From Brachyhypopomus gauderio (Eukaryota > Chordata > Actinopteri > Gymnotiformes > Hypopomidae): DNA of 64,000 nt. The notes under the pieces were generated by a model, which had not been told where the DNA came from, made no database searches, and worked only from the letters and a program-made list of their open reading frames with translations. Both the position numbers and the translations under genes were made by a program. Each line of letters starts with the position of its first letter. Position 1 is the stretch's first letter. Location: contig NC_135222.1 of assembly GCF_052324685.1 (NCBI RefSeq), positions 4,131,749-4,195,748 on the forward strand. The letters run 5' to 3'. Positions 27,142 to 50,200 of the stretch are shown in pieces.

Positions 27142-27472
27142 TGTGACGTTCGGTGCGGCGTGAAGGAGGAGACACAGATCCTTCTGTGGCGACAGACGTC
27201 ACTTTTATTTTCACACACAGATAGCGCACGTAGAACATTTAACTGACACGGCAACGTGTAGACTTTAAACAACGACGAGCACAGGACACTGCGCGAGCGC
27301 ACATTAAATAGACAAACCACATAAGCCCCACGTGATTACGAGACGAACCACAGGTGAGACGGATTATCACAAGACACAACCACACCCACGGAGATCCACA
27401 GACGCAGACGAGTAGACGTAGACGACGTAAACACACACCCAAAAGGGAGGGGCCGGGGTCCTCAACGTGACA
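27142..27472 (-). mobile_element. Solo LTR (copy 1), minus strand
   Basis: The ends are TGTGACG...CGTGACA, i.e. TGTCACG...CGTCACA on the minus strand. It is a close relative of the element at 35504-35842 in the opposite orientation. On the minus strand it has a GTCTATTTAATGTGCGC promoter-like box and an AAAATAAAAGTGACG poly(A)-signal region near the 3' end, as expected of an LTR. Flanking 5-mers GATAG and GATAT agree at four of five positions, consistent with a decayed target-site duplication. No internal retroviral or retrotransposon genes are attached. Confidence 0.75.
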
Positions 27473-27623
27473 GATATAATACTCAGTGGCACACTGTAAT
27501 AAACAGACTGTCACCGGCTCACAGTTTTTTAGTTATCATATTACTGGTGATTTGGATGGAATGACAATTGCTGGCAAACATATTGTGATGAGCTAATTTG
27601 TGGGAAACACCAAGCTGTTTTTG

Positions 27624-29669: not shown

Positions 29670-32600
29670 ATGGATTGCGTGGACAAAGCAAATACTGCCA
29701 CCAAGAAGCTTGTTCAAGGTAAAAAGCGCCTGCAATGTCGACGCAACTACACATTTACCGTGTCGTGTATTTCATTTTTGCAAGAATTTTTTAATGGTTT
29801 ACGTCAGTATGTTAAGAGCAGAACGTGTGAATTTTGAATGAAATTAAGTATGTAATGTATTGGTAACTGCGTTTAGTATTTTAAACCTATTTATGACTAC
29901 GCAAGTTTTTGAATTGGATTAGCTCATAACCACTTCAGTTCGAAATGGAGCTGTCAAACAGTGCACTCCTATATAACCACTATATTTTGGAAATGACTGT
30001 ACATTTAAGACCTTAGATGATTTTGTTTACAGAATCCAGTAGTCACATTATCTGCAATGTAAATTGTATGTTTTGAAAATATAGCATTACATAGCCATTA
30101 ATCAGTATGGAGTCTCTAACGATTTTTGATGGCTTTGTTTTGTGCATTTCTAATTATTTGTTGAACTTGGTCTCATTTTCTATCTAAATTGTTATGATTT
30201 CGTTCCAGCCCGTCTTCCTTTCAAACGTCTTAACCCAGAACCCAAGGCAACAAATGAGACCAAAAGGACCAAAACAAAGGCTTCTGGTCCACCTACTCAT
30301 GAGCCCAGTGCTTCTGATGGGGAGAACGAAGAAGACACGCTCCTCCTGAAGCCTAGACCTGGTTTGATTAACGGCTGCGGACCTCTTGATGGTTTTATGA
30401 GAAGGGCCAAGTGTCCTCCGGTAAGCTCTGTTCCTGTAGTCATGATTGACCTAACAGAGGACTCAAATTCCACCGATGCCTCTAAGCGTCAGCCTCCTGC
30501 TCCTGAAGTTGCCCCGTGCCCCCTTATGGGTGAGGCCACAAGACCTACCCTGGCTGCCACACAGGAGAAAGAACCCCAAACGTCCCCCGTCACCTGCTCG
30601 CCGTCAGTCGTGAGTATTGAAACAGACAAGGCGGACGACGGCGTCACTCTCCCGACGATGGACAGCACTCTGGAGTCTGAACCGGAGACAGAACCACAAC
30701 ACCAGGAGACAGACGTGAGTCAGGAGAACGTCTCTGCACTCTCCCCCATGTCCACCAGCTCCGTCTCAATGGTTGAGAGCTCACCAGAGCCCAGCAAGAG
30801 CACACCGACCACGCCCGCCTCAGTGAGTTCAAGTATGAGGTTTCTCTGCATCCTCTGAGCGTTCCAAAACATTCCAGCTAATTGGGGGTTTAATGGTCGG
30901 TATCTTGTGGCTGATTAATTGCTCTTGATGAGTTGCTGTTGAATATAAAGTGTGGGAAAAGTGATTAAGTAGAGCTAGGGCAGAGATAATCAAATGATAA
31001 TCAAAATCAAATTGGTGCTTGCTGCTATTAATTGATGTTAAAGCATGTGCATAGAGAAATACTTTAAAGTGGGAAGCAGTATTACCTTCACTTCTCAGTC
31101 CAGCTGCTAACCAAGTCTGCTTTAAGATCATCTGTAGGACGGTGCTGAAGTGACTGAATGATGTTTTCACAGTACAGACCTGTATATGTCTTGTAGGAAA
31201 TTAAGTATTAGGCTCATGAATATTTCTCATGTAACTTAAGTTAAAATTGCTGATTTCTTAATATAATTGATTTGGAAGCATGCAATTTGTTTTTAAATGC
31301 TTGATAAAGCTAATTCTACTAGGGGTGCAGTCAGTATGAAAGTTAATTTTGACATTATATTGCAATCTAATGCATTTACATGGTAATAGGACTAATATAA
31401 CTAGCTTGTTTAATAAAAAGTATTTTCCTTCACATAGGCATCAAGTTCGAATGCAGAGCAGAAACAAATAAAAAGACGTTCATTAAAGGTAAGATTAATG
31501 CCGAGTTTCATCAGGGCATTGACAAGTTTAGTTAGGCGTAGTTGTGAGTGACCTGACCCCCTACCTTTACACAACATCTGGCAATAGTGGCTTCACCATT
31601 AACCATTGCTATATACAGCTTTATAAAGTTGTGCGTTTGTTGTGAAGCTGCGAACCTCCTTCCCGTGTGCACCAGAGCCCCCAGGAAGAAGAGAGGCAGC
31701 GGCAGCGCGATGAGAAGGAGCGTCAGAAGCAGGAGGCCAGGGCGGCCAAGGAGAAGCAGAGAGAGGAGGCCCGCAAGCAGAAGGAGGACATGAAGAGAAA
31801 GCGGAAGGAGAAGAGGGAGAAAGAGGAACAGGAGCGACGGGAGAGGAAGGAGAAGGACTGCAAGGAGAAAGCGGAGAGATTGCGGGTGAAAGAAGAGCAG
31901 CGCAAAGTGAAGATGGAGTGAGTCGGGTTCTTAACATGCACCAGAGTGTCATAATTGGTGTCCTGTGTGCTTTTCTGTTTAAAAATATTTTTACTTATTT
32001 ATTTTAGGGCTAAACTTGAAGAGAAGAGAAAAAAAGAAGAGGAGAAACGGTTGAAAGAAGAAAAAGAGGTTTGTTCCCACAATCACTTTTGAGCTTCCAT
32101 GAAAGCCTTGGGCCTATCTGTGTATAATTTAAGTACGCTGAACTTTCAGTAGGAGAGCATTTCTTGCTTGATGTATACATCATGCCTCAGAGGGCTGTTC
32201 AGATCACAAGTTTCTTAAAATAGATGTGTCAAATCTAGCATTCATGTATCTCGGTTCTTGTTTAATCTGTCTTTAGAGACTCAAAGCTGAAAAGGCTGTG
32301 ATTACCCGATTCCTGCAGAAACCCAAGACTCAGTTAGCACCAAAGGTGAGAAACCAGCTGCACATGGTGGCCTCCTATATTGTTCATTGGACATGTATAT
32401 CTAAACATGTCTAGACCTAGTCATTCTATAATGCTATATTTTACTTTTTTTTTCTCACTCCAATAAATATCTTGTGTTTTGCATATAGGATGTACATTTG
32501 TTTATCCAACTTGAGTTCAATGCCATTGTGTTTCAGACCCTGGCGTCTGTCTGTGGGAAGTTTGCACCCTTTGAGATCAAAGAACACATGACGCTGGCTC

Positions 32601-35600
32601 CCCTGAGACGAGTTCAGTGTGAGGACCTGCTGCTGGAGCAGCTCGATCGGTACCTGACCGAACCTGACAGCAGTTTGGACTGCCTGAAGGACTGGATAGA
32701 ACACAAACCCCGCAAGTCTGGTGCCACCAAGGCCAGACACAGTGACACCATGAGTTCGGAACACAGGTAAAGCTTTGCAAATCGAGCATGAGCTCTACAT
32801 GTGAAATGTACATGGCCATTTTACAAGTTACTCAAATTATGCTAATTACAAATGATGAACAGAAGAAGCAAATTTAGTGTTGGCAGCCAGTAAACTATAT
32901 ACATACATATACAGGTGCTCAGTAAATTTGAATATCAAAAAATGTAATTTATTTCAGTAATTCAAGTATTTTAAAAAAATGTGAAACACATCATGATGGG
33001 GCTCGTCCAAGACAACACAGATTGTAGAAACTTCACCTTAAGGAGCTAGACCTTCACCTAGACCTCAAGTAGCTTGGATTGTGTGCCTCCCCACTCTTCC
33101 TCCAGACTCTAGGAGCCTGATTTCCAAATGAAATGCAAAATTTACTTTCATCTGAAAACAACACCTCGGACATGAAAATCTGTCACCTTTCGCCGAAATT
33201 CGCCTTTTTGAAGTTGAAAAGGGTGACGTACACGAATTGTACGTGAATCAGAGAATTGAATCAGAGGAGTTTTTTGGGGGGGGGGGCTGGGTTGGGAGAT
33301 ATTTTATATTTATATATAAATATATAATCATATAGACTTGATAAGCAAACAGAGCACTTCTGAAATCGGCAATATCAATGACACAGTGGCCAGCAATTTC
33401 CGCCCAGAACCATCATTGAGTTCAAATTGCGTCCAATCATACGAACGTTCTTCATTCATGTTGTGAAGCAGGACCGAGTGCTATCTACTAAGGCTGGGCG
33501 ATATGGAGCAAAAATAATATCTCGATATTTTTTAGCTGAATGGCGATATACGATATATATCTCTATTTTTTCTTCCCAAAAGGTAATAACAAAGAGGCAG
33601 TAATAAGTCAAATCTACGTCCCAAATGAGTTGCGCGAAGAAGAGAGGCAGGACAGGGTGGAAGTTGTTAAAAGAGAAACTCAAGTAAATTCACTATTCAG
33701 TGTTGTGCGTGAACGAGTTCAAAAGAACGCGTTCATTGAACACGCTCATTTTTTCGTGAACGTTGAACTGAACGAAACACATTTTTTAATAACTTGAACA
33801 TGAATTAGTTCACATTATGTGTCATGAACGGTAGACATCACTGTAAATGAACGTTGGAATTTGTTTCCATTGAAAACTGAGTGACATCTGTTTTCTCTTT
33901 TGAAACGCAACGAGAGAAAGTTCCTCCCTCCTGTATTCTCGCTGGTGCCGCTTAAATCATGCATCACCATCATCAGATGGTTTTGACGTTGTGTGCGCAA
34001 TGCATTGTGGGCAACGTAGTGTCCGCATGAGAATAGTTAACATACTGGCTAGTTAATAACATACTGGCTTCCGCACGACGTTACCCGTGATGAATTGCAG
34101 CAGAGCGGGGTAGGCATAGCACTTATAAGAACGTATAGTGATTTCTAGCTTGTAGTTGTCACGTCTGGCTCCGCCCCCTTCTAGTCTCGTCGTTTTTATG
34201 TTTTCCTTGTTCTTGTTACGCCCCTCTGTTTCAGCTGTTCTGTGTTAGCTTGTCTTAGTTTTACAAGTGTGTGTGTGTGTGTGTGTGTGTATTGCCTATG
34301 TCCAGACTATACCTTGAGGGATCATTGTCGTTTCTTTAGCTCCTAGTTGGTGTGTATATGTCCAGACTATACCTTCGGGGATCATTGTCGTTTCTTTATT
34401 TCCTAGTTGGATGTGCACGGTATTCACGCCTTATCTGTGATTCGTGGTTTTGATTAGCTTCGTGTATTAACTTGTGTATGGTTAAAGTCTCTGTTCCATT
34501 TTCAGGTTCGTAGTGTTTTAGGTTTTCAGTTCATGTTTGGTCTCCGTGTTCTCTAACGTGATATCGTGCCTGGCAATACATGTATGTTCTGTTAGACTTC
34601 ATGTTCATGTATGGCCGTTACTTGCTTCCCGTGTGTTTGTTCATGTCAGTGTATGTAACAATTAGTTGTACTCTTGTGTTTGGTCTAGTTTTGTGCCCTT
34701 GTCATTTCCGCTGCTTTTTAGTTTTTAGTGTATTAAGCGTTAGTTCTCTATTCATCATCCCACGTCATTCGCGGTCCACTCGCGTGTCGTCTGCAACTGT
34801 AAGATGTGAAATAAAATCTAATGAGATTGTACTATCTACTTCGCATTTGTGTCCGCCCCTTGATTGCGCAACAGCCAAATCGTGAAAAAAGTATTTGAAT
34901 ATCTCACGAAAAAAGTAAAATTAACTGAACTTTGAACGTGAACTGTTCATGACATACTTCCACACTACTGATGTAGCTCCTCGTTTAGGAACTAAATCAT
35001 TCACAGTGTGAGCACTGCTGCTCTCTCCGCTGTTGGCCTTGTTTATTTTGCGCGCTGCACGTACAACCTGCGTCCTTGCGTCATAATGTCGCGATATAGC
35101 GAAATCCTATCGAATAAAGAAATGTACACAGTAAAAAATGAAGTGTTAAATTAACACCTACAGAGTTGAATTTAACTCCGTTTCAGATAACATTTGGTCC
35201 CACTCCAAAACAGTGTTAACTTCACTCTATAGACAGTGTTAGATTTTCAGAGTAAATTTAACTAAAAATTGAGTTAATATTAACTCCAACATGTGTTGAA
35301 ATATTTAACACTGTGATTTAATAACACGGATAGAGCAATATAATAACATTATATCAGAGTTACTTTAACTCTAAAAAAGGTAAAATATTTACACTTTATT
35401 GTGTAATTGCATTTAACCTTAATGGAGTTGCATTTAGTATTTGCTACATTTAATTGTAATAATTGGATCAAATTGCCCATTACTGTAATTATCTTCTAAA
35501 AACTGTCACGTTGAGGACCCCGGCCCCTCCCTTTTGGGCGTGTGTTTACGTAGTCTACGTGCATCGTCTGCGTCTGTGGATATTCCGTGGTGATGGCTAT

Positions 35601-38600
35601 GTCATGTGATAATCCGTCTCACCTGTGAATCGTCTCGTAATCACGTGGGGTTAATGTGATTTGTCTATTTAATGTGCGCTCGCGCAGTGTCCTGTGCTCG
35701 TCGTTGTCTAAGTCTACACGTTGTGTGTACCTGTTTATTATTCGTGCGCCGATTGCGCAATAATTGTAAAAATAAAAGTGACGTCTGTCAAGACGAAATA
35801 CGGATTCTGTGTCTCGTCCGTCTGTCGCCGCCCAGCGTCACAAAAACAAAAAACAATAACTCAAGATCCAAATAAACTCAAAGATACAAATAAACCTTGA
35901 TTGATTGAAGATGAAAGTAATGCAGCATTTAATGACATAATAAAACACTGCACAAACATGTGCAAACATTGCTTATCCTGTGCCATTGGATACTAAAATA
36001 ACTTAAAATAAATACATCAGTGACCAAATGAAAAATTACTAATTTACCAAAGAAAACAGTATGGGACAATCAACAGTGCGGTGTCATCTGTTTCATATGA
36101 CCTTTGTATGTCAAAAGGCCTATGATAACACAGGCTATCAACATGAAAAAAACAAAAATCATGTTTTGACTTATTCACTTCAAATGCATGGAAATGTTCT
36201 CGAAAAGCTACAGTAATTAAAGGCACAGTGAGCAGCAACAATCTTTCATGTACTATCAGAACAGAATCAATTATATAAAACAGAGGCATTTCAGATTCGA
36301 CTTTACCACAGATAACCAAGTTTGGGCGATAAACAAACCCATGATATTTAGCCCAACTCACTTTCAAAACCTGAGTGCTACTGGGCACCTGCATTTCCGT
36401 GGCAATTCCAGAACCTCCTTTTACCACATTCAAAGACACCATTTTTCCTGGACCCATGTCTAAACGTCTAAATGTTGTTGAGGACTGCCAACTGTTTGCC
36501 ATGTGATTTTGATGTTTTTTTGCCAATGTTTTGGTAATGTTTTTAAATGATTTAAGTTGTTTTTTAAAAAAATTATGTTTGCCCTCATACCGCATACACC
36601 AACTATGAAGGACAGGTCCAATTTTTTGGATGCAGCGAGGGTAATGGATAAGAAAATGGTGTTTTGGTAAAAGTTTTTTCTGAGGAAACAACTGCTTGAA
36701 CAGCTTATGATGTTCCACAATTAAGTGCTTCAAATAAACGCTCAGACCTTGAGATAACTTGGGTGAGAAAACAATGTTAACAATCTGGAGTAATAGAAGA
36801 AGAAGTTCCCAGTGTTTGTCGGTGGAAGTTAACAAATCTCCAAAGATGAGAGGAACATTCCTGAGTAAGCACCATGACTGCACTGCATTCAAGCCCAGAT
36901 CATTAGAACTTTCACATAAATTTAAAGTTGCTGGTCTATTATTTTTTTCCATGAATCCATAATCAAAACTTTGTATTCGTAAATACAGTTCTCCTGATGT
37001 TATATGTCTTTCCTTCAAATAGACAAATAACAACTTTAATTCGTACTGGGCAACCCCTTCTAACACATCATGCATCACATCAACTGAGAAGTTCTCAGTT
37101 GTGTGAAAATACTGCAATGAGTTCAGCAAACATGAACTCTTTACACCAAAAACATGAGGAAGTGATGGATTCATTGTCATCTCTTGACAGTGAGCATTGT
37201 GAATTTCTTTTGTGCGCAGTACTATCTTAGGAGAATCTTCAGAAAATTCAGTTTGAAAGTCATGTTTTTCTGCTAAACAAAACCTGCAGCAGTACCTTGC
37301 ATTGAAGGACTCCACCAGACCAAACAAACAATGTAAAGCCAGATTATCACCAGTAACTTGTACAACACTGCCACGAATATGACCACCATAAAATGGAATG
37401 TCAATACCATCACACTCCAAAATTTTAATGTCTTGAACAACAGGAGCAAGAATTGCATTAAAACCATACCTTTTAAGATCCTGAACATGAAACAAGGCAC
37501 ACAAGTGTATATTAGCTAGACAAGAATTCCATTTTGGAGAGAAGTTTCGCAAAGTAAAATATATACCACCCAATTTATGAATACCTCGCTTGGAACCAAG
37601 AGGGTTTGCCACCTCAAAATCATCATAGAAAATTTGGATTTGAAGAGTGTGTCTTTCTATTGAGAACAGAGGGTGACTTTTAAAAAAAGATCCATCACAA
37701 ATATCTCCAAGTTTTGAGCTGTTGGGACATGTTGTTTGCAACATTTCTGGGGCATACTGGCTTTTAAATATTAACTGCAAAGTAGACAAAATTGGAACAT
37801 ACATGAATTTGTCTTGAACTACTTTTTGATCATATGTTCCAGTTTTTTTGTTTAGTCTTGTGTCAAATCTTGAGCCAATTACACATTCAACTGGTTCTAC
37901 AGTTTCCCACTTGTCTGTTAAAAATTTAGATTGCTTGTATTCAGAATTTAGAACCATGAAAGGATTCTCTATCTCATCAAAACATGCTTCAATCTTTTTG
38001 CACATTTCAGGTTGTCTGTCATCATTACAGACAACCTTAATCACCTTTTCTTTAGCATGTTGATGAATATCTTGGACAATATCCTCCATAGAAATTACAA
38101 CGGAATTCACTAAACTTTGACTAACTCCTGCTGTCTTCAGATCAGCTATTACAGATGCACAGCTATTAACAAGGTCAGGAAAAGAAGACAGCCCTGACTC
38201 GGACTCTACATTTTCAGCTGACACATCATCTATGGCATTACAAATGTTGAGGTCACTTTGAGAACTTGCAAAATCACCAATCTGTTCAATATCTAATAAA
38301 CTGTTTACATGGCACTTGTTAAGATGCTTTCTGAAACCAGAAAAGCTACCAAAAGAACGTGAACATCCCACTTGACCACATTTAAGATAAAGTGTCCTTC
38401 CCGTACAGAGTCCATGAATAACCTTAAGATGTTTGACCAAGCTGTTCGGACTTCCATGGTCACTTTTACAAAGGAAACACCTCATATTTTAACTTTTGTT
38501 TAATGCAACATTCTGGCTCTTAACTCTGCAACTCGAGGAGTCTCCTTTGTTTCACCCATGTCAATGTTGTAGATAGTTGTTTGGACAAAAGTGAAAAAGT

Positions 38601-41600
38601 TGTTCAGGCAAGAACTGTAAGACGTACCGAAGACGAAATGTGCCTTAAAGAGTTCGTCAAAAGCTCCCACTGAAGCTGTTGCCTTGCATGGAAGTGCATA
38701 TTTGTCGATCACAATGAAGTAGGCGTGAATGTTGTTCTTTGTGGGTCCCAGGGCAAGCAGATAGGGCTGACAGCTTACTTTGATGGTGTCTAGGTGCTGC
38801 TGCACACTGGTTCCAACCTATAATGGAAACAAATTGAAATGTTATATGACCAGTTTATTATTTCAAATATCCTTGCAGTGTGCATTACATTAGTGTTGTA
38901 ATAACAACTTACCTTTTGAAATCTGATGAGCTGATCTACAGCTTGAGATGCAGACATCTTTCCGGGGCGTTTTTTTCCTTGTGCAGATGGTGGTAATAGA
39001 TGCAACAACAGCATGATTGCAGACATGTCACTGTCCCAGGCTACTGATCAGTAAAGAATTGTCAAGTTGACATAATATCACAATTACATTAAAATGAGAC
39101 ATCAACAAAAAACCTGCACCATTACAAAAATAAATTGTGTACCTACAAGAAATATTAATGTCAAGATACAATAGCACACATACCATGCTCATCTTCATTA
39201 GCAGACTCAGCATTTTGCAATAAATCCAGTAGAACTGAGGTTGCTACAAGTCCATGGCTTTCCTCCATTATTTTTCTTTTAAAGGTTGTTGGCCACCTTT
39301 CCAGGAACTTGTTAGATGTTACCTCACCAAACAGAAGTCTGAAGTCTTGCTCTATCTGAAATGCAACAAACACAAACAAACTAAAATAAAAACAAACACG
39401 ATTTCATGAGTGATCTCTGCAATGTAGTGATTAAAATAATTTAAATACCAGTCCTGGTGTGTCCAGGAACCGTGGGAAGACAGAAAAGACATCTGCTGAT
39501 TTGTTTGCATCTTTAATCATTGCTTGGCGATAAGAGAAGGTAGTTTTCATCTTGGAACGGACAGTGCCTTCATCAGCAGAGTATCTCAAAACAGCAATGG
39601 CTGCTTCCATGTCCTCATCAGTTGGCACTTCATCACTGGTGAAGGGTTGTCGGCCACAACCTGGTCCACCAACTTCAGACAAAACAATGTGATAGCCTCT
39701 TGAATGCACAGTTCTCAGCTTATAATCTTATATTAATCATTAATATATTATTCATTATTGAACTTACTTTTGGGCGATTTGCATCCTGTGGCACCTCTTT
39801 CTTCTGCTGTTTTTCTTTGTATGGTCTTCAATCGCCAAGCCAGATATCCAGATCCACTTTCTGGATCATAGTAATGTTCCTAAATAAATAAAAATTAATG
39901 CATAACTGCATCTTTTACAAAATATTCAAGGTGGCAAAAGTGGAATGACGTTTGGGAAACCTAAGCAACAAAACAAAAGCGGCAATAAACCTCTATTTCA
40001 TTTAGTACAAATATTTTAAGCATGTGAATTGAGAGAAATGAAAAATATCTGTACACTTTAAAACAATGAGATAATAGTTGCCAAACTATTTTAAAAAAGA
40101 GAAGTTGCATCACAGATTATGAAAAATTGTGAAAAATATTCTAAAGTTGCACAGAATGGCTGAATACATTAATATATTTACACATGAAAGTGTGAATATG
40201 TGATTAATATTGCACTTTTACTTACATATCCATGTTGGGAATATGGATCCTCCAGATAAGGAAACAGCCCAACTATTCCCTGTGCATACATCACCCTAAC
40301 ACTCTTCGGAGGAGATGTCCTGTAGGGAAGGTATATAAACTCAATCAAGCAAATTTAACTTCAAAAATAAAAATGATTACTAAATAGAAAAGACAAAATT
40401 TCTTCACCATAAACATATGTCCGTGCTTACCCATGTGTTTCTGTCATCTCAGCGGCAAGTATATTTATCATCTGTCTTCTGGTGGGATCTGTCAAGGTTT
40501 TGGTTTTTGCATACTCTTGCATAATTCGTTCACCACCAGGTTTCGATGCTAGGATTTTTTCAATCAACTTTGGATTGGAAGTAAAATTGGAAAATAATTA
40601 GCTCAAAAACAATCCCCATCCAAAAAATAAAATAAAATTAAATTAAATACCTACCGCTTTTGCCTCACAGTTTATTCGACATGGTCTTTTAGCTTGGCTA
40701 CTTTCGCCAGTGGCTGCTTCTGCATCCGGGTCACAGGAAGTTACGGTTAGAATAATGGTGTCATCAGATCTTACAGATGATGAGGATGACTGAGAGGCGC
40801 CTGTGAATTCTAAAATATAAACATAACAGAAACATTCAGTAAAATGACATGGATTTAAAAAAAGTACAATACAGACATAAAGAAAACCTGTATCAAAGTA
40901 CTTGGTTTTATAGTAGCTGTTCCACTTTATAATAACATTTTAGTAGTAGTAGTAATGATGCATGATTACCAAGTTCTTCATTAGCTAGAGTGACTCGAAA
41001 AGTTCCAGGTGACTCCTTTGCAATGTCTTCAAAGACTTCAGCATCAATTTCTGTGTCTGATTGGTCATACACCTTGATGTCTGGCAGTCTATCCTCTGGT
41101 ATGTTAAATTTGGAATGCACTGTAAAAAAATACAAACATTTAATTCACAAAACGAGCACACTTATTTTAATTAACCTATAGTTTTAAAAACAATACTGAT
41201 GCAAGAAAAAGACGGCAGTATCATATGGAGCCTTGATTTTAGACATATAAAACTGTAGAAACTTCATTGACACACCTTCTTTCAAGAAAGCCTCAAATGT
41301 GAGTTCGGGGAGCTTAACATATTTTTGCTCTCCCCCAAACCGAACACGTACTAACATGTTGAATCTGTAGAAAAAAAAACAATGAGTAACAATTAAACCA
41401 ACGAAAATTTAACATTTAAGAGTTTAAGGTGGCACCTGCACTAACTGCTACCCCACGTAATGAGGAACAGCACAGCGAGATTATAAGTAAAGTACAGTGA
41501 TCCTTCGATGCTTCACGCTTCAGTGGCTTCGCTGGTTTTCATAAGATATTAATGAATTCGATCGGCGGAAAATATATATATGGTAGCGTGTCGGCGGGAG

Positions 41601-44338
41601 TAAGAATGCCACGCAGGTTTTGCATAATCTTTCCAACACTTTTAGAGAGAAAGAGAAGTTATACATGCACTCAACTCCCTTGTTCTGACCTTTTTCATAC
41701 ACCGTTCAACCTAGGTCATCACTCCCTCAACACAACCTGAATACGGTGTGCCTTACCAGTGCTAGATTAAACGCAAGTGACTACAGAACAAACCCGCAAA
41801 TTTTATGTAGCATAAACGTGTGGGGAGGGTTTATAAAGCCTTAATATAGTGTATATATACTTCTTTACGATTTTCGGTTATCATTCGGATAAATGAGGGA
41901 TTACTGTACATTTATTGGAGGATGATAACTGGTTGTATGTCCTCGATATGACTCTTGAACAAGCAAATATAGCTTACATTTGCTTACTTTTTATGTTTGA
42001 GTCGACAATAAAAATGAAGAAACTCGGAAATATTAATCAAATGTGTATTTTTTATTCCTTGACAAACAATTACAAAACTAAACTCATACCAACTGACAAT
42101 CTATAGGTCTATATAGTAAGTAGCCTAAGCTCCGAATTGTTTATGCTAACTTCCAAGCAACCAACTAAAATTTAGAGCTAACTGGTAATTAAACTCTCAC
42201 ATTTCAGCATCACTAAACGGAAAGCTAACTTCATCTCTTATAGAAAAGAAATGCTACAATTTGTTGTTCGAAACACAGAAAAACACAGTACTTACTAGTT
42301 TTGCAGCTTGAAGCTCGAAGCAGCACCAAATAGACCACATTCAGCATTCAGGCGCGAATTTTACACTCTGAAGAGTAAAGGTTTTCATTGTACATTTTAT
42401 GAATTTAACACTTGGTTTTAACTCCACCTTTAGATTGCATTTACACTACATAGTGTAAAAAGTACTCATTCTGGATTTAAATAAGTTAACTCTGAAGTAT
42501 TAACACTCCATTTTTTACTGTGTACCGGTATTTTTGTAAACGATATTATATCGCCCACCCCTACTATCTACACCGGGGACAAGGCAGAACAGCGTACATT
42601 TACCACTACATTTACCAGATCGTACATTTACCAGATCGTACATTTACCAGATCGTACATTTACCACTACATTTACCAGATCGTACATTTACCACTACATT
42701 TACCAGATCGTACATTTACCAGATCGTACATTTACCACTACATTTACCAGATTGTACATTTACCAGATCGTACATTTATCAGTGGATTTACCAGATCGTA
42801 CATTTACCAGTGGATTTACCAGATCGTACATTTACCAGTGGATTTAATTGGGTTATTAATGGTTTCAATAGTTTTCATATTTTCTGGTTACTGCCATTCG
42901 CCACAGTGTTGAACACAGTCAGAGCTAGCCACAAGCTCTGAGTAGGTAGATAGATGGGCCTATTAAGTTTGCATCAACCCCGTGTAGTTAACGGTGACAT
43001 CAAATAAGAAACAAGATTTTTTTTCTAGTGTCTCTGTAGTTCTTACTGGTGAATCCAGGGACGTGTGAGGATAACATTCGCGCCAGGGCTGAAAAAGTTG
43101 AAGATGAAGTTGTAAACTCTTGTCGTTTGATAGCCTACCCTGTGCTTTAGCCCATGTAAGAAAATAAAAACACGTGAACCCTGGTATGTTTTACACTCAT
43201 TTTTGCCACTGATGTATTTATTGGTTCATTAAGATGTAATGGTTTTAACTGAGCCATCTGGAATGGCGAAAGCGGCATCTCGCGTTTACTGATCTGCCTC
43301 CATCCATTGACAAGACAGGTCAATATTTTACGCTAGCGTCCCTGCAGGTCTAAAGTGAGAAGTAAACTAATCCGCACTCTGCGTTCCAATGGACTACTCT
43401 TCTTACTCGCACCCCTCCAAGTTAAAAGCTTTTTTTTTTTTTTATCTCAGAATCTGACAGTGTTTGAATGTCATGTCTGATATGTATTATGTTTAGTATA
43501 TCTATGTTCAATGGTTCAATTATTATTGTTCACTTCTTAATAAAATATGGACAGCACAAGATGCATGTGGTGTGTGAGTGAACAAAGCTGGTTGTATATA
43601 GAGTGGCCACTTTTCAGTATTGCTTTAATTGCTTTAATTTTGGTATTTTTACTATTATGGATTTTATTATATTCGGCATATATTATATACCAGTAGCAAA
43701 CCGTGACCATTAAACCTGGAAATTTTTTTTTCCTCTCCTAATAAACTGCAATAAAGAAAAAACCGAGATGACAGTATAGCTTTAGAAACGCAATAAACAA
43801 TAACATTTGTACTAGATAACTTGTTAAGCAAAATAAGTTTCCAAACAAAATAAGTTTTCACAGCTCCGTGGTTCTCTGAAGCGGAATATGTAAATGAGGA
43901 CGTCAAAGGACTAAATCGAAACTAACTAGCGGTGGTGCTAACGACAGCTAGCATCGCCACAGCGGGCGGAAATTATCATACAGTTAAGCCCGCCCACTAA
44001 GAGGGAAAATATGATTGGTCAATTTTACTGTCATTTGAAAGTGGTATTGCACTGAATTATTACTGCCAGGCCCTCTGTAAATGAACAGCGGGCATCACAG
44101 TGCTGATAGGGGGAGACACAGGCTCACAGGCTTCCACTTAACCCCTCACCTTCCAACACAGATTGAATAGACACGGGTGAATAATTTATTTGCTTACATT
44201 TTTGTAATTTTTTAGATGTCTATTGTAAAACTGTAAGTAGATCAAATAAAATTGGATAATTATATATATATATAATGTTTTAAGAATATTTTAGGCCCTC
44301 TGAGAGGGCGTATAGGGCCCTGACGGTTCCCCACTGAG

Positions 44339-44493: not shown

Positions 44494-47237
44494 ATATATA
44501 TATAAAATTTTCATGCCTGATAGTGTTATATCAAGATCAAAATTGTGCAGTCGTCTACCAGGAAATTTTAGAGCACTTCATTCTTCCCTTTGTAGACAAG
44601 CTTTTTGGAGATGGAAATTTCATTTTCCTGCAGGACTTGGCACCTGTCCACACTGCCAAAAGTACCAAACTTTGTTTAATAACCACAGTATCGCTGTGCT
44701 TGTTTGGCCAGCAAACTCTCCTGACCTAAACCCCATAGAGAATCCATGGGACATTGTCAAGAGTAAAATGAGACACCAGATCAACAACGCAGATGAGCTG
44801 AAGGCTGCTATCAAAGCAATCTGGGCTTTCATTACACTTCAGCAGTGCCACAGGCTGATTGCCTCCATGCCACGCCGCATTAATACAGTAATTCGTCTAA
44901 AAGGAGCCCCGACCAAGTATTTAGTGGATTTACTGTACATTACTGTACGGGGCACTTTTCAGTAGGACAACGTTTCTGAATTAAAAATCTTTTCAGTTGG
45001 TCTTATGTAACATTCAAATTTTCTGAACTATAATTTTAAAAAATTTAATTCATTTCATTGTTGATTTACATTAGTTCTAAAACCCTAGATCAGTGAAAGG
45101 TCCCTCACCTGGTAAGTCTGCTGTGCTTCGTCATCAGGGACTGTGTGATTGTCGGTGATGGTCCAAAACAAGACGGAGTTCCTGATCGCAAACGTTATGG
45201 ACGAATGAAGCTTCTGCATTTTCATGAAAACTATCGCCCCGCCTACTGGGGCACTTGGAGAAAAAAAAGCTTGTCCATCTCCTCCCGCTGCCCGTTCAGA
45301 CAGGACAAGGTGAACACCTCCGCACACACCACACGCATTTGAGGTGGACACCTCCGCACACTCCACACGCATTTGAGGTGGACACCTCCGCACACACCAC
45401 ACGCATTTGAGGTGGACACCTCCGCACACACCACACGCATTTGAGGTGGACACCTCCGCACACACCACACGCATTTGAGGTGGACACCTCCGCACACACC
45501 ACACGCATTTGAGGTGAACACCTCCGCACACACCACACGCATTTGAGGTGGACACCTCCGCACACACCACACGCATTTGAGGTGGACACCTCCGCACACG
45601 CCACACGCATTTGAGGTGGACACCTCCGCACACGCCACACGCATTTGAGGTGGACACCTCCGCACACGCCACACGCATTTGAGGTGGACACCTCCGCACA
45701 CACCACACGCATTTGAGGTGAACACCTCCGCACACTCCACACGCATTTGAGGTGGACACCTCCGCACACTCCACACGCATTTGAGGTGGACACCTCCGCA
45801 CACACCACACGCATTTGAGGTGGACACCTCCGCACACACCACACGCATTTGAGGTGGACACCTCCGCACACACCACACGCATTTGAGGTGGACACCTCCG
45901 CACACGCCACACGCATTTGAGGTGGACACCTCCGCACACGCCACACGCATTTGAGGTGGACACCTCCGCACACGCCACACGCATTTGAGGTGGACACCTC
46001 CGCACACGCCACACGCATTTGAGGTGGACACCTCCGCACACGCCACACGCATTTGAGGTGGACACCTCCGCACACGCCACACGCATTTGAGGTGGACACC
46101 TCCGCACACGCCACACGCATTTGAGGTGGACACCTCCGCACACGCCACACGCATTTGAGGTGGACACCTCCGCACACGCCACACGCATTTGAGGTGGACA
46201 CCTCCGCACACGCCACACGCATTTGAGGTGGACACCTCCGCACACGCCACACGCATTTGAGGTGGACACCTCCGCACACGCCACACGCATTTGAGGTGGA
46301 CACCTCCGCACACGCCACACGCATTTGTCTGAAAGTCATGGAAAAGTCATGGAAAAGTCATGGAAATTAGTTGTCAAAAAAGTGTATGAACCCTGTGTTT
46401 GTTTTCTCATTAATAATAGTGTGTTCTTTATTATGTTGACTAGTAGGACAGTTAAAATATGATTGTTTATTCATGTTAATATCTGGAAGGATGACAAACA
46501 TGCAGCATAAGCATTTGAGAATGAGGGAATGCTTCTGTGTAGACAGAAAAGTGGGTGCTAATGATGGCTACAAAATTCATTTGTAAGTGGGAACGATCGC
46601 TTCCCCCTTCATATGCCTCACAGTGGTTTAGTCCACTGACCCCTCCCCTCCCCCTCTCCATATCCCTCAAATGGTTTGTTCAAGCAGGGCCACAGATGGC
46701 ATCAGTAAGGTTTGGGCAGAATTTTCTATAATTTTTCAAGGTTGGATGGTTTTTTTCCCTCTATTTTTTAAAAGTATTTTATTTTTAATTTTAATAAAAT
46801 TTAAATTTTTATTTTAATGTTGCTTTGTGTTGCAGGTTTGAAAAGTGCTGGAATTTAGGCTAAAGTACTTGAAATTGCTTGAAATTGTAACTAGTTTGTT
46901 TCACAACAACTAGCTGTCTGACTGAACAGTTCTCGTTTTAAATTAATAAATACGAGCCTCTTGTAATTCCAGGACGAAACGTGAGAGAACGTGAAGACCT
47001 AAAGATTGGCCGTTTTGAAAATAAACAACCATTAAATAATGTGATAAAGGCGAATTATTTTGAGTATATGCATAAATATTTAACTTAATTAAGTTTAACG
47101 AGCTGGGAAATATTGAAATGGACCTTTAAAGTGACGTACAAATGCTTGAATTCCACCTTATAAAGGTGTATGAACCCTGCAAACATGACTTTGTTCATTG
47201 CGCTGAGGTCGTATATATGCACAGAAGACATGAATGA

Positions 47238-47268
<31 letters not shown>

Positions 47269-50200
47269 GAACTGCTGGACTACGAGGTGGACAGTGATGA
47301 AGAGTGGGAGGAAGAGGAGCCAGGGGAGTCTTTGTCCCACAGTGAGGGGGTGAGTCATATCGTGTCCGTGAGGGCAATACTGCAAGAAGTCTAATTCAAC
47401 GTGATGACTCCAATGGTTTTGATTTTTGAAAAATGTTTTCAAAAGATGGATGTGTATTTAGGAGAATGAAAAGTCTTCAGTGTTTATGGGCAAGAGCTTT
47501 TATTGTTTTGCAGTAAAGTGTTGGTCTTGATTTTGTTATGGCTTGGAGCAGTACTAAAGTGTAGTGATGTAATGATGACTCTAATGTACCAGGATGAGGA
47601 CGATGAAGGAGGGGATGACGACGACGACGATGATGGATTCTTTGTGCCACATGGCTACCTGTCCGATGGGGAAGGAGCACTTCAAGATGAGGTCTGTCTG
47701 GCTGACCTCTTTCTGACTAGAGTAAAATGTCATATAGTAATCTCTTAACTGCTGAAGCTTATAATTATGTGTATATTTTCGTTCAAATGTTTTATTACTT
47801 TTTCATTCAAGTGTATTGAATGTATTTTTCTAAGTTTGATGTAGTTTGTACTTAATGGTAATGAGTTTGTTGTAGTTTATTCTTGATTTAAAATGGTGTG
47901 ATTTGGTTTGACAGTACCCTGGCTATGGTCACTGAGGTGTGGCTCTGTGTGGGGGTGTGGTCTGTGTGCTTAGATGGGCGGTGATCCAGAGAAACAGAAG
48001 GTACGACAGCGACTGAAGGCTCGAGAGTGGGATGAGCTGATGGCTGAAAGGAAGCTGAATGTGCTGGTGCCAGTGGTGGTGGGCTGTGTGTGGCAGGGGG
48101 CGGAGCCTCTGCCAGACCTGCTGCCGTATGCGGTATGCATGCTGGAGCCCCTCCCAAGGGAGGAGCCTCGGACGCCTGAGGATGATGCCTCAAGTCAGCA
48201 GAGAAAAGAGCAGCGTGAGTTTATTGGTCCTGGCTACATGTGAGATGATGTGGTGTCCAGTCTCTCAAAATGTATGTGCCTGGTATCATTGAATCACTGT
48301 AATTGATTAAATCTGGCTGAGTAGACAACGAAACTTTCACGTAGCTGGAAGGTTTAAAACTTTAAAAAGTGTCTTTATTGCCTAACAGCGATTATAATGT
48401 AGTGTGAATGAGCACATTTCAAAATGAATCGACAGTTTACACTTCCTCAAGTGTTGCGCAAATCGATTTATATTTTAAGTAACTACACTTGAGTCCTGAA
48501 GCCCTAGGCTAGCGTTGCTGTTAAGTTTTATTTTAGTGATTTTCATGATGGGATTGATGTAGCTGTCCAACTGACCTCATTTACTGACTTTAGATCATTT
48601 TCTTTATAACAGACAAAAACATTTGAAGAAACGTGTGCCCTGTTGGTATAAATATGACCGCGGCGATCTCTGTTGACTGCTCGGTCCTGATGGGATCTCT
48701 CAATGTTTCCCTGCTTGGCTCTCAGTTCTCTCCCAGCTGCTGCCGTTACTCCACGGCAACGTGAACAGCAGTAAGGTCATCATCACGGAGTTCCAGGAGT
48801 CCTGTCGTCAGCGCACGGCCTCGCAGAGCGGCAGCCCTCAGGGCTCTGACGTCGTCCCCCCTCGGTGAGGCGCTCCACACCACTGTTAGAGAAAAGCCAA
48901 AGCATCTCTGTGTGTATCTGTGTCTGTCTCTGTGTGTATGAAGTCTGTTCTTGCGTGTCCATCATAGATGTTAAAAGTTTAGGACTGAAGGGAGGCGGGT
49001 ACGCCATTGGTGTCCAAGCCTGGCGAGTTAGCAAGAAGTCAGAACGGATTATAGTGGCTTTACGCCAAGAGGATTGTAGTGGCTGTTGATACCTGGCCAG
49101 TGTGTATCGTCTCTTCTTGTTGGGTGTCGAACGCCTCATGAATGTGGCTTGTAGCTCATTCGCCAGTGCAGAGTGAAAATAAACACGGTGACATAGCCTT
49201 GTAGCTTCCCGTGACGCAGCACGGCGGCCTTTTAACTTGTACCGTGGTTTCGATCCTCACTCAGGACTCACGTGAAGCGTCTCATAAAGGAGAACGCGGT
49301 GTATGAGAAGCGCTCGACCTACAGGCGCTGCTGCTGGTACGTGCACGCCGATGTGCTGGCTCGCTTCGGCCAGGAGGCCCTGCCCGTGCCCTGCAGGTGG
49401 ACCTACCTCACCCCCGGGGCAAATGTGGCCCGTGACGACCCCGCAGGGCAGCCGGCGGGGACGCAGGGCACCTCGCCCACCACGCCCCAGTCCGCCTCCT
49501 CCACACCCTCCAACAAGAGGAAGAGTGCTAGCAACCACTCCATCACCAAGTACATGAAGAGATGTGGCAACCCTGAACAGGTGGAGACTTTATTTTTATG
49601 CACCATGTAGATTGTTTGGCTCTGTGTAGATTTTGATGCATATATGTAGTTGGCAGTGTTGCTTAGTGTTGGTGTCGATTTGCCATTTTTATGGGCATTA
49701 AAGAGAGTGGAGCTTAAGTCCTGAGGTCTGCCCTGTGCCCCATAGGCTGAGACTATGGAAACTGATGGCTTTCAAGCAGATACTGAGGATGATGATGACG
49801 ACTGCATTATTTTGAGCGAACAGTCTGGTAAGTCCAGAACATTAAATCCAAGTGTTTCAGAAACCAAGATTAGTCCTAACCCCAGGCTAAACGGGACATT
49901 CAGTGATGAGGAATTGCCGCGGGCATTTTGATTTAGTTTACAACTAGTCTTGATCCATGACCAGGAACCCGGCTTGGAACCATAGACTATATACAATGAT
50001 GCGTCACCGTTGAGTTTAAAAAGTCAAAGGACTATTAGGAAGTTTAATGTGAGCTAGCTAGCATAGATTCCTAATATGAGGGCATTTCAAGTCAGCTAGC
50101 TCGAATTTGCTGTCAAGCGCATCCAAGACGTTTGATCTATTAGATGTCGATCATCGCAGCCATTAGCTGTCGATCACGTCATTGCCACACCCCTTTAAAT

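Follow-up and report, generated by a model that had tools for sequence, protein, structure and literature searches.

A two-gene CMC-type transposon of an electric knifefish combines a RAG1-fold transposase with a SAMD3-like second protein

The 64,000-nt stretch of Brachyhypopomus gauderio DNA analysed here (assembly GCF_052324685.1, NC_135222.1, positions 4,131,749-4,195,748, + strand; the window) contains a complete transposon in which the gene for a RAG1-fold transposase is accompanied by a ten-exon gene for a second, SAMD3-like protein. To judge from its sequence and copies, the element is a recently active cut-and-paste DNA transposon with intact ends and with both genes open in four copies. 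We consider it fairly probable that this is a two-protein CMC transposon in which the transposase cuts the ends and the SAMD3-like partner pairs them, as TnpA does. A preliminary description of this DNA had proposed an intact two-gene CMC-type element, and the ends, the copies, the conserved catalytic residues and the open genes all bear this out.

Four complete elements are present in the 796.5-Mb B. gauderio assembly, to which all genome searches refer: the window copy (C12) and C55, C70 and C275. They are 7,381-7,396 bp long and 99.92-99.96% identical, and their flanks differ. The transposase has 813 aa in all four. The second protein is 523 aa long in three of them; in C70 it has 519 aa, with the reading frame and all splice dinucleotides intact. 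In a fifth copy, C18, the transposase is open and the right end complete, but the left end has lost its first 10 bp. The C72 copy is a relative that has diverged further and carries an internal deletion. The target duplications of the four full copies are each 2 bp long (TA, TA, TA and TG). The C275 copy interrupts an exon whose P-loop motif we take to be of the small-GTPase kind, RGK-like (Rem/Rad/Gem type), and its flanks joined with one TG match at 100% at the 40 places scored of 139 candidates. The C55 copy sits within a minisatellite, and its flanks hold 25 exact units when joined with one TA. Both pairs of flanks thus rejoin as empty sites, which shows a 2-bp duplication and precise insertion; because one of the four insertions is at TG, TA is a preference and not a rule. 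A 4-bp duplication, GTAC, fits the window copy only and was discarded. As a separate observation, the 200-bp stretch around the P-loop exon (L011) recurs at these scored places with a spacing of about 9-52 kb, on contigs C121, C77, C47 and C16, and may be a large amplified array in this electric fish, if it is not an assembly artefact.

The simplest alternative is an older host locus, in which two unrelated genes lie between chance CACAG repeats. In its favor, the 14-bp terminus has 32 exact genome matches and a reversed control pattern still has 15. Eight of the 32, however, are the two ends of the four elements and one is the right end of C18; eight matches outside the elements were inspected (the other 15 stand outside this count), and all eight lack further similarity and are not elements. 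The alternative is refuted by the three other complete copies, at 99.9% identity and with precise ends, and by the empty sites for two of them, and we give it virtually no probability.

The terminal inverted repeats begin and end as CACAG...CTGTG and agree at 22 of 23 positions, flanked by TA on either side, as first described. The motif GWGTWAA occurs 18 times in the terminal 520 bp (left 330, right 190) and three times in the 6,196-bp interior, and when the ends were shuffled base by base 2,000 times, they held 0.47 copies on average and never more than 5; since the motif was chosen post hoc among words enriched in these ends, the contrast between ends and interior is overstated. Domains of CAF-1 p150 (chaf1a) lie on the + strand on either side of the element (30154-32767 and 47974-48240), which places it antisense in a chaf1a intron, in agreement with the intronic location proposed at the outset. 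On the minus strand the ten-exon gene (38500-41357) comes first and is followed by the single-ORF transposase gene (36044-38485).

The transposase was compared in an alignment of 46 family members. The ligands of its two N-terminal C2H2 fingers (C3/C6/H19/H24 and C36/C41/H54/H59) are identical, at seven of eight positions, in every member with a letter there, and H59 is retained in 44; the protein also contains VDVMHDVLEGV, and the fingers and a DVMHDVLEGV block had both been recognized beforehand. Residues D288, D380, E634, C400/C403, H609/H610 and H614 are invariant in all 46. The protein thus shows the arrangement given for CMCT transposases in the excerpted text of PMC12730594, a DD..E triad whose second D and E enclose CxxC and H(3-4)H, and its core has the RAG1/Transib transposase fold. 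By one method, a PDB-sequence profile search at E <=10, RAG1 and Transib were not among its matches. A Tnp2 (Transposase_21) domain was matched at E <=1 by 22 of the 46 members (best 7.9e-6) and not by the window protein; Pfam and PDB sequence searches with either element protein alone returned nothing useful. Among the literature matches listed, none joined a BAH domain, which the C-terminal fold here resembles, to a transposase or CACTA element.

The ten exons of the second gene have GT/AG borders and join in phase with no internal stop to encode 523 aa, identical to NCBI model LOC143528675 isoform X2 of this species; an acceptor 3 nt away would yield 524 aa. Its status as an uncharacterised protein, as first proposed, proved exact. 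The N-terminus has a ubiquitin fold (CIDE-N/PB1-like). Residues 80-523, which were not folded alone, gave no convincing match in fold searches of PDB and viral libraries, and the one PDB profile match of the protein (E 0.27) was taken as chance. Between the window and C72 copies the exons are 97.1% identical (792 bases) and the introns 95.5% (865 bases), with 13 nonsynonymous and 9 synonymous codon changes where the neutral expectation is 2.9 to 1, which lends weak support to selection on the second gene. Its stop codon precedes the transposase ATG by 14 nt, and the gap is 9-26 nt in ten related loci with both codons readable (L017, L018, L021, L022, L023, L024, L029, L055, L067 and L071, several being copies of one family; it was unreadable at L025 and L057).

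The preliminary description had placed the second protein in a teleost family annotated as uncharacterised or SAMD3-like. This stands at the superfamily level: the two families align over their full length, across 439 columns from N- to C-terminus, with an hhalign probability of 97.4, an E-value of 1.6e-11 and 22% identity. Proteins that NCBI calls SAMD3-like are, in the same genome, the second gene of sister transposon families. At least 20 of the 120 matches listed are named SAMD3, and none of these among the matches listed carries a precomputed Pfam domain. A SAM domain was found by Pfam in none of 32 SAMD3-like members, and is absent from the Pfam families matched by 53 members of the second-protein family; of the 32, four match PB1 (best 3.6e-5) and seven match Coilin_N (best 0.0045). 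The SAMD3-like family includes Xenopus members (P0291, P0311), and that human SAMD3 shares the region is suggested by name alone.

The two genes also travel together elsewhere. Thirty transposase loci were taken with 1.5-kb flanks from 55 scored (444 candidates), and five belong to the window family. The next 13 pieces represent 12 distinct elements in eight families, at 47-58% identity, and 10 of the 12 (six of eight families) have a relative of the second protein upstream in the same orientation. L020 and L026 are without it, and at L026 a second-protein exon lies about 1.8 kb upstream, beyond the fetched DNA. At 12 more distant loci, which have 28-36% identity and fall into five families when their DNA is compared, a related ORF lies directly downstream in every case, so that the gene order is swapped and the pairing retained. 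Eight control loci with chance termini and the leftmost 35 kb of the window yielded no relatives; to the right of the element P0148 alone matches, via its residues 433-510, and its record is also labelled Tc1-type DDE. In the reverse direction, 20 distinct loci of the second protein were fetched, out of more in the genome, and 18 of them have a transposase in the same orientation: the five window-family copies, seven already found from the transposase side and six new ones. The two without it are L066 and L070, a derivative on C72. Elsewhere among fishes, the two proteins have neighboring locus tags in Coilia grayii and Synaphobranchus kaupii, and in Corythoichthys intestinalis they share a contig, to judge from equal contig sizes. 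The suggestion that many annotated fish genes are transposon cargo is thus supported for this genome. The two conditions named at the outset as refuting, a second protein usually found apart from transposase and termini and recently mobile copies that lack it, did not refute the first description.

These data bear on whether the second protein is merely a passenger, a captured copy of the host gene SAMD3 that the element does not need. Transposons do capture genes, and NCBI names the relatives after a host gene. We nevertheless judge this distinctly improbable: the second protein is open in all four full copies, it adjoins transposases in six of eight nearer and all five distant families of fetched loci, its two transposon branches are far apart (22% identity), and SAMD3-like members lack the SAM domain in all 32 cases. 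From this retention we infer that the element needs its second protein in order to move.

A more serious rival is that the chemistry needs the transposase alone and that the second protein acts outside the end-pairing complex, as a transposon-borne regulator or anti-silencing factor. The BAH-like transposase tail points to chromatin, the ubiquitin-fold domain resembles signalling and oligomerisation domains, and a regulatory role is known for plant TnpA too, according to the portion of PMC1636069 consulted. The motif array, however, stands at both ends and not at one promoter end only, and the pairing is kept in five distant families with swapped gene order, as expected of a structural partner; we therefore regard a purely regulatory role as unlikely.

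We suggest instead that the 813-aa protein is the recombinase, whose C2H2 fingers and RAG1-like core would bind and cut the CACAG ends via D288/D380/E634 while its BAH-like tail contacts chromatin. The second protein would take the role of plant TnpA, binding the GWGTWAA repeats near both ends and multimerising via its N-terminus, so that the ends are paired and offered to the transposase; it may also relieve silencing. The short stop-to-start gaps make it probable that a single transcription unit yields both products, either through alternative splicing or as a dicistronic mRNA.

The 2-bp duplications and CACAG terminus indicate that this is not a canonical CACTA element. They agree with the CA...TG termini (in most cases) and 2-5 bp duplications given for CMCT elements in the text of PMC12730594 available to us. 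With maize En/Spm (TnpA and TnpD) the element shares CAC...GTG termini, a dense subterminal repeat array, two proteins and possibly a Tnp2/Transposase_21-like DDE transposase, which 22 of 46 family members matched; it differs in having CACAG rather than CACTA, a 2-bp rather than 3-bp duplication and two adjacent genes, and probably in its ubiquitin-fold, SAMD3-like second protein. CMC/EnSpm elements are known in fish and other animals, and Schistosoma SmTRC1 resembles the knifefish element in its 2-bp direct repeats, possibly in its Transposase_21 domain, and in a short, TnpA-like product without a transposase domain (PMC1636069, in part). The excerpt reports no relatives of that product in other elements, whereas the knifefish second protein belongs to a family conserved across fish elements. 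The fungal EnSpm-like ESTA elements share the CMCT clade, TA duplications and a RAG1-like transposase, but the families described carry a TET/JBP gene (PMC12730594, from the same excerpt), and one in four knifefish insertions is at TG. With Transib and RAG1-RAG2 (ProtoRAG) the likeness lies in the core fold, the DDE residues with inserted CxxC/H-H zinc motif and the two-gene layout. In contrast, the knifefish partner seems unlike the kelch-PHD protein RAG2, the termini are different, the duplications are 2 bp, and it is the transposase itself that contains the possible chromatin reader, a BAH-like fold. The SAMD3-like teleost proteins, finally, are remote homologues of the second protein over nearly its full length; they are named after a SAM-domain host gene.

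Within the literature searched, what is new is that the partner belongs to one conserved superfamily that includes annotated SAMD3-like proteins, and that a very young element combines it with a transposase that has a RAG1 fold and a BAH-like tail. No published link between SAMD3 and transposons was found in that literature, which was seen in part and does not extend to Repbase, and the excerpts of PMC8945855, PMC9004415, PMC9341512 and PMC4411706 mention none. The slot of the animal CACTA-type second protein is thereby filled by a recognisable conserved family, and because that family is known and the element moved very recently, the role of the protein is directly testable. As one more two-gene transposon with a RAG1-fold recombinase, the element can also inform ideas on how RAG1 acquired RAG2. 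Some fish genes that bear the name SAMD3 or SAMD3-like serve as association candidates, and some may be transposon copies; carp Samd3, a candidate for intermuscular bones in the portion seen of PMC8945855, deserves such a check.

Several related proteins are side observations. Twelve clustered matches (L072, C1:49177000-49180000; also C1:48.9-49.2M, C7:26.9-27.0M and C17:18.9M) hold one second-protein-like exon; the one read is followed on the same strand by an exon that we take to be DEAH-box-helicase-like, a candidate domesticated fusion. Salmonid and pike proteins of 830-902 aa with C2H2-finger labels (P0172, P0188, P0173, P0174, P0178, P0182, P0183, P0187) are a candidate host-transposon fusion gene; P0172 and P0188, as read, join zinc fingers to second-protein sequence, part of it doubled. 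It is possible, though on balance doubtful, that the CIDE-N/PB1 and SAMD3-like protein is the ancient obligate partner of vertebrate CMC transposons, the hitherto missing TnpA counterpart of animals and a RAG2 analogue, with vertebrate SAMD3, the salmonid/pike fusion and the knifefish helicase-linked array as separate domestications. Three Sarotherodon galilaeus records of the two families (P0045, P0047, P0185), publicly named alpha-tectorin, RAD51-associated protein 1 and fibroblast growth factor, are misannotated transposon genes, and fish transposon proteins filed under the ferret Mustela putorius (P0096, P0098, P0130) are likely contamination or mislabelling.

Table 1. Features of the element, in window coordinates.
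Feature	Position	Strand	Basis or remark
Complete transposon, 7,396 bp	35127..42522	.	ends and three near-identical full copies with different flanks
TA target-site duplication, left	35125..35126	.	
TA target-site duplication, right	42523..42524	.	
Left terminal inverted repeat, 23 bp, CACAGTAAAAAATG...	35127..35149	+	22/23 match with right end
Right terminal inverted repeat	42500..42522	-	
Left subterminal array, 10 GWGTWAA, either orientation	35143..35394	.	
Right subterminal array, 8 GWGTWAA	42360..42506	.	
Transposase, 813 aa, single ORF	36044..38485	-	222 homologues at E <=0.001
Two C2H2 zinc fingers (residues 3-59)	38309..38479	-	ligand conservation
RAG1-like DDE core (residues 101-676): D288, D380, E634, CxxC 400/403, H609/H614	36458..38185	-	
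C-terminal BAH-like domain (residues 673-806)	36068..36469	-	
Second protein exon 1 (start ATG)	41276..41357	-	
Second protein exon 2	40970..41119	-	
Second protein exon 3	40655..40809	-	
Second protein exon 4	40431..40567	-	
Second protein exon 5	40226..40319	-	
Second protein exon 6	39768..39879	-	
Second protein exon 7	39449..39672	-	
Second protein exon 8	39184..39355	-	
Second protein exon 9	38913..39040	-	acceptor that reproduces NCBI model
Second protein exon 10 with stop codon	38500..38817	-	14 nt before transposase ATG

Within the left part of the element, window positions 35503-35842 match 27142-27473 at 82.7% on the opposite strand and are probably a dispersed repeat that the element carries. 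Immediately to its right lie tandem repeats of TTTACCAGATCGTACA-type units (42600-42900), and about 3 kb further on a longer repetitive stretch (45088-46357).

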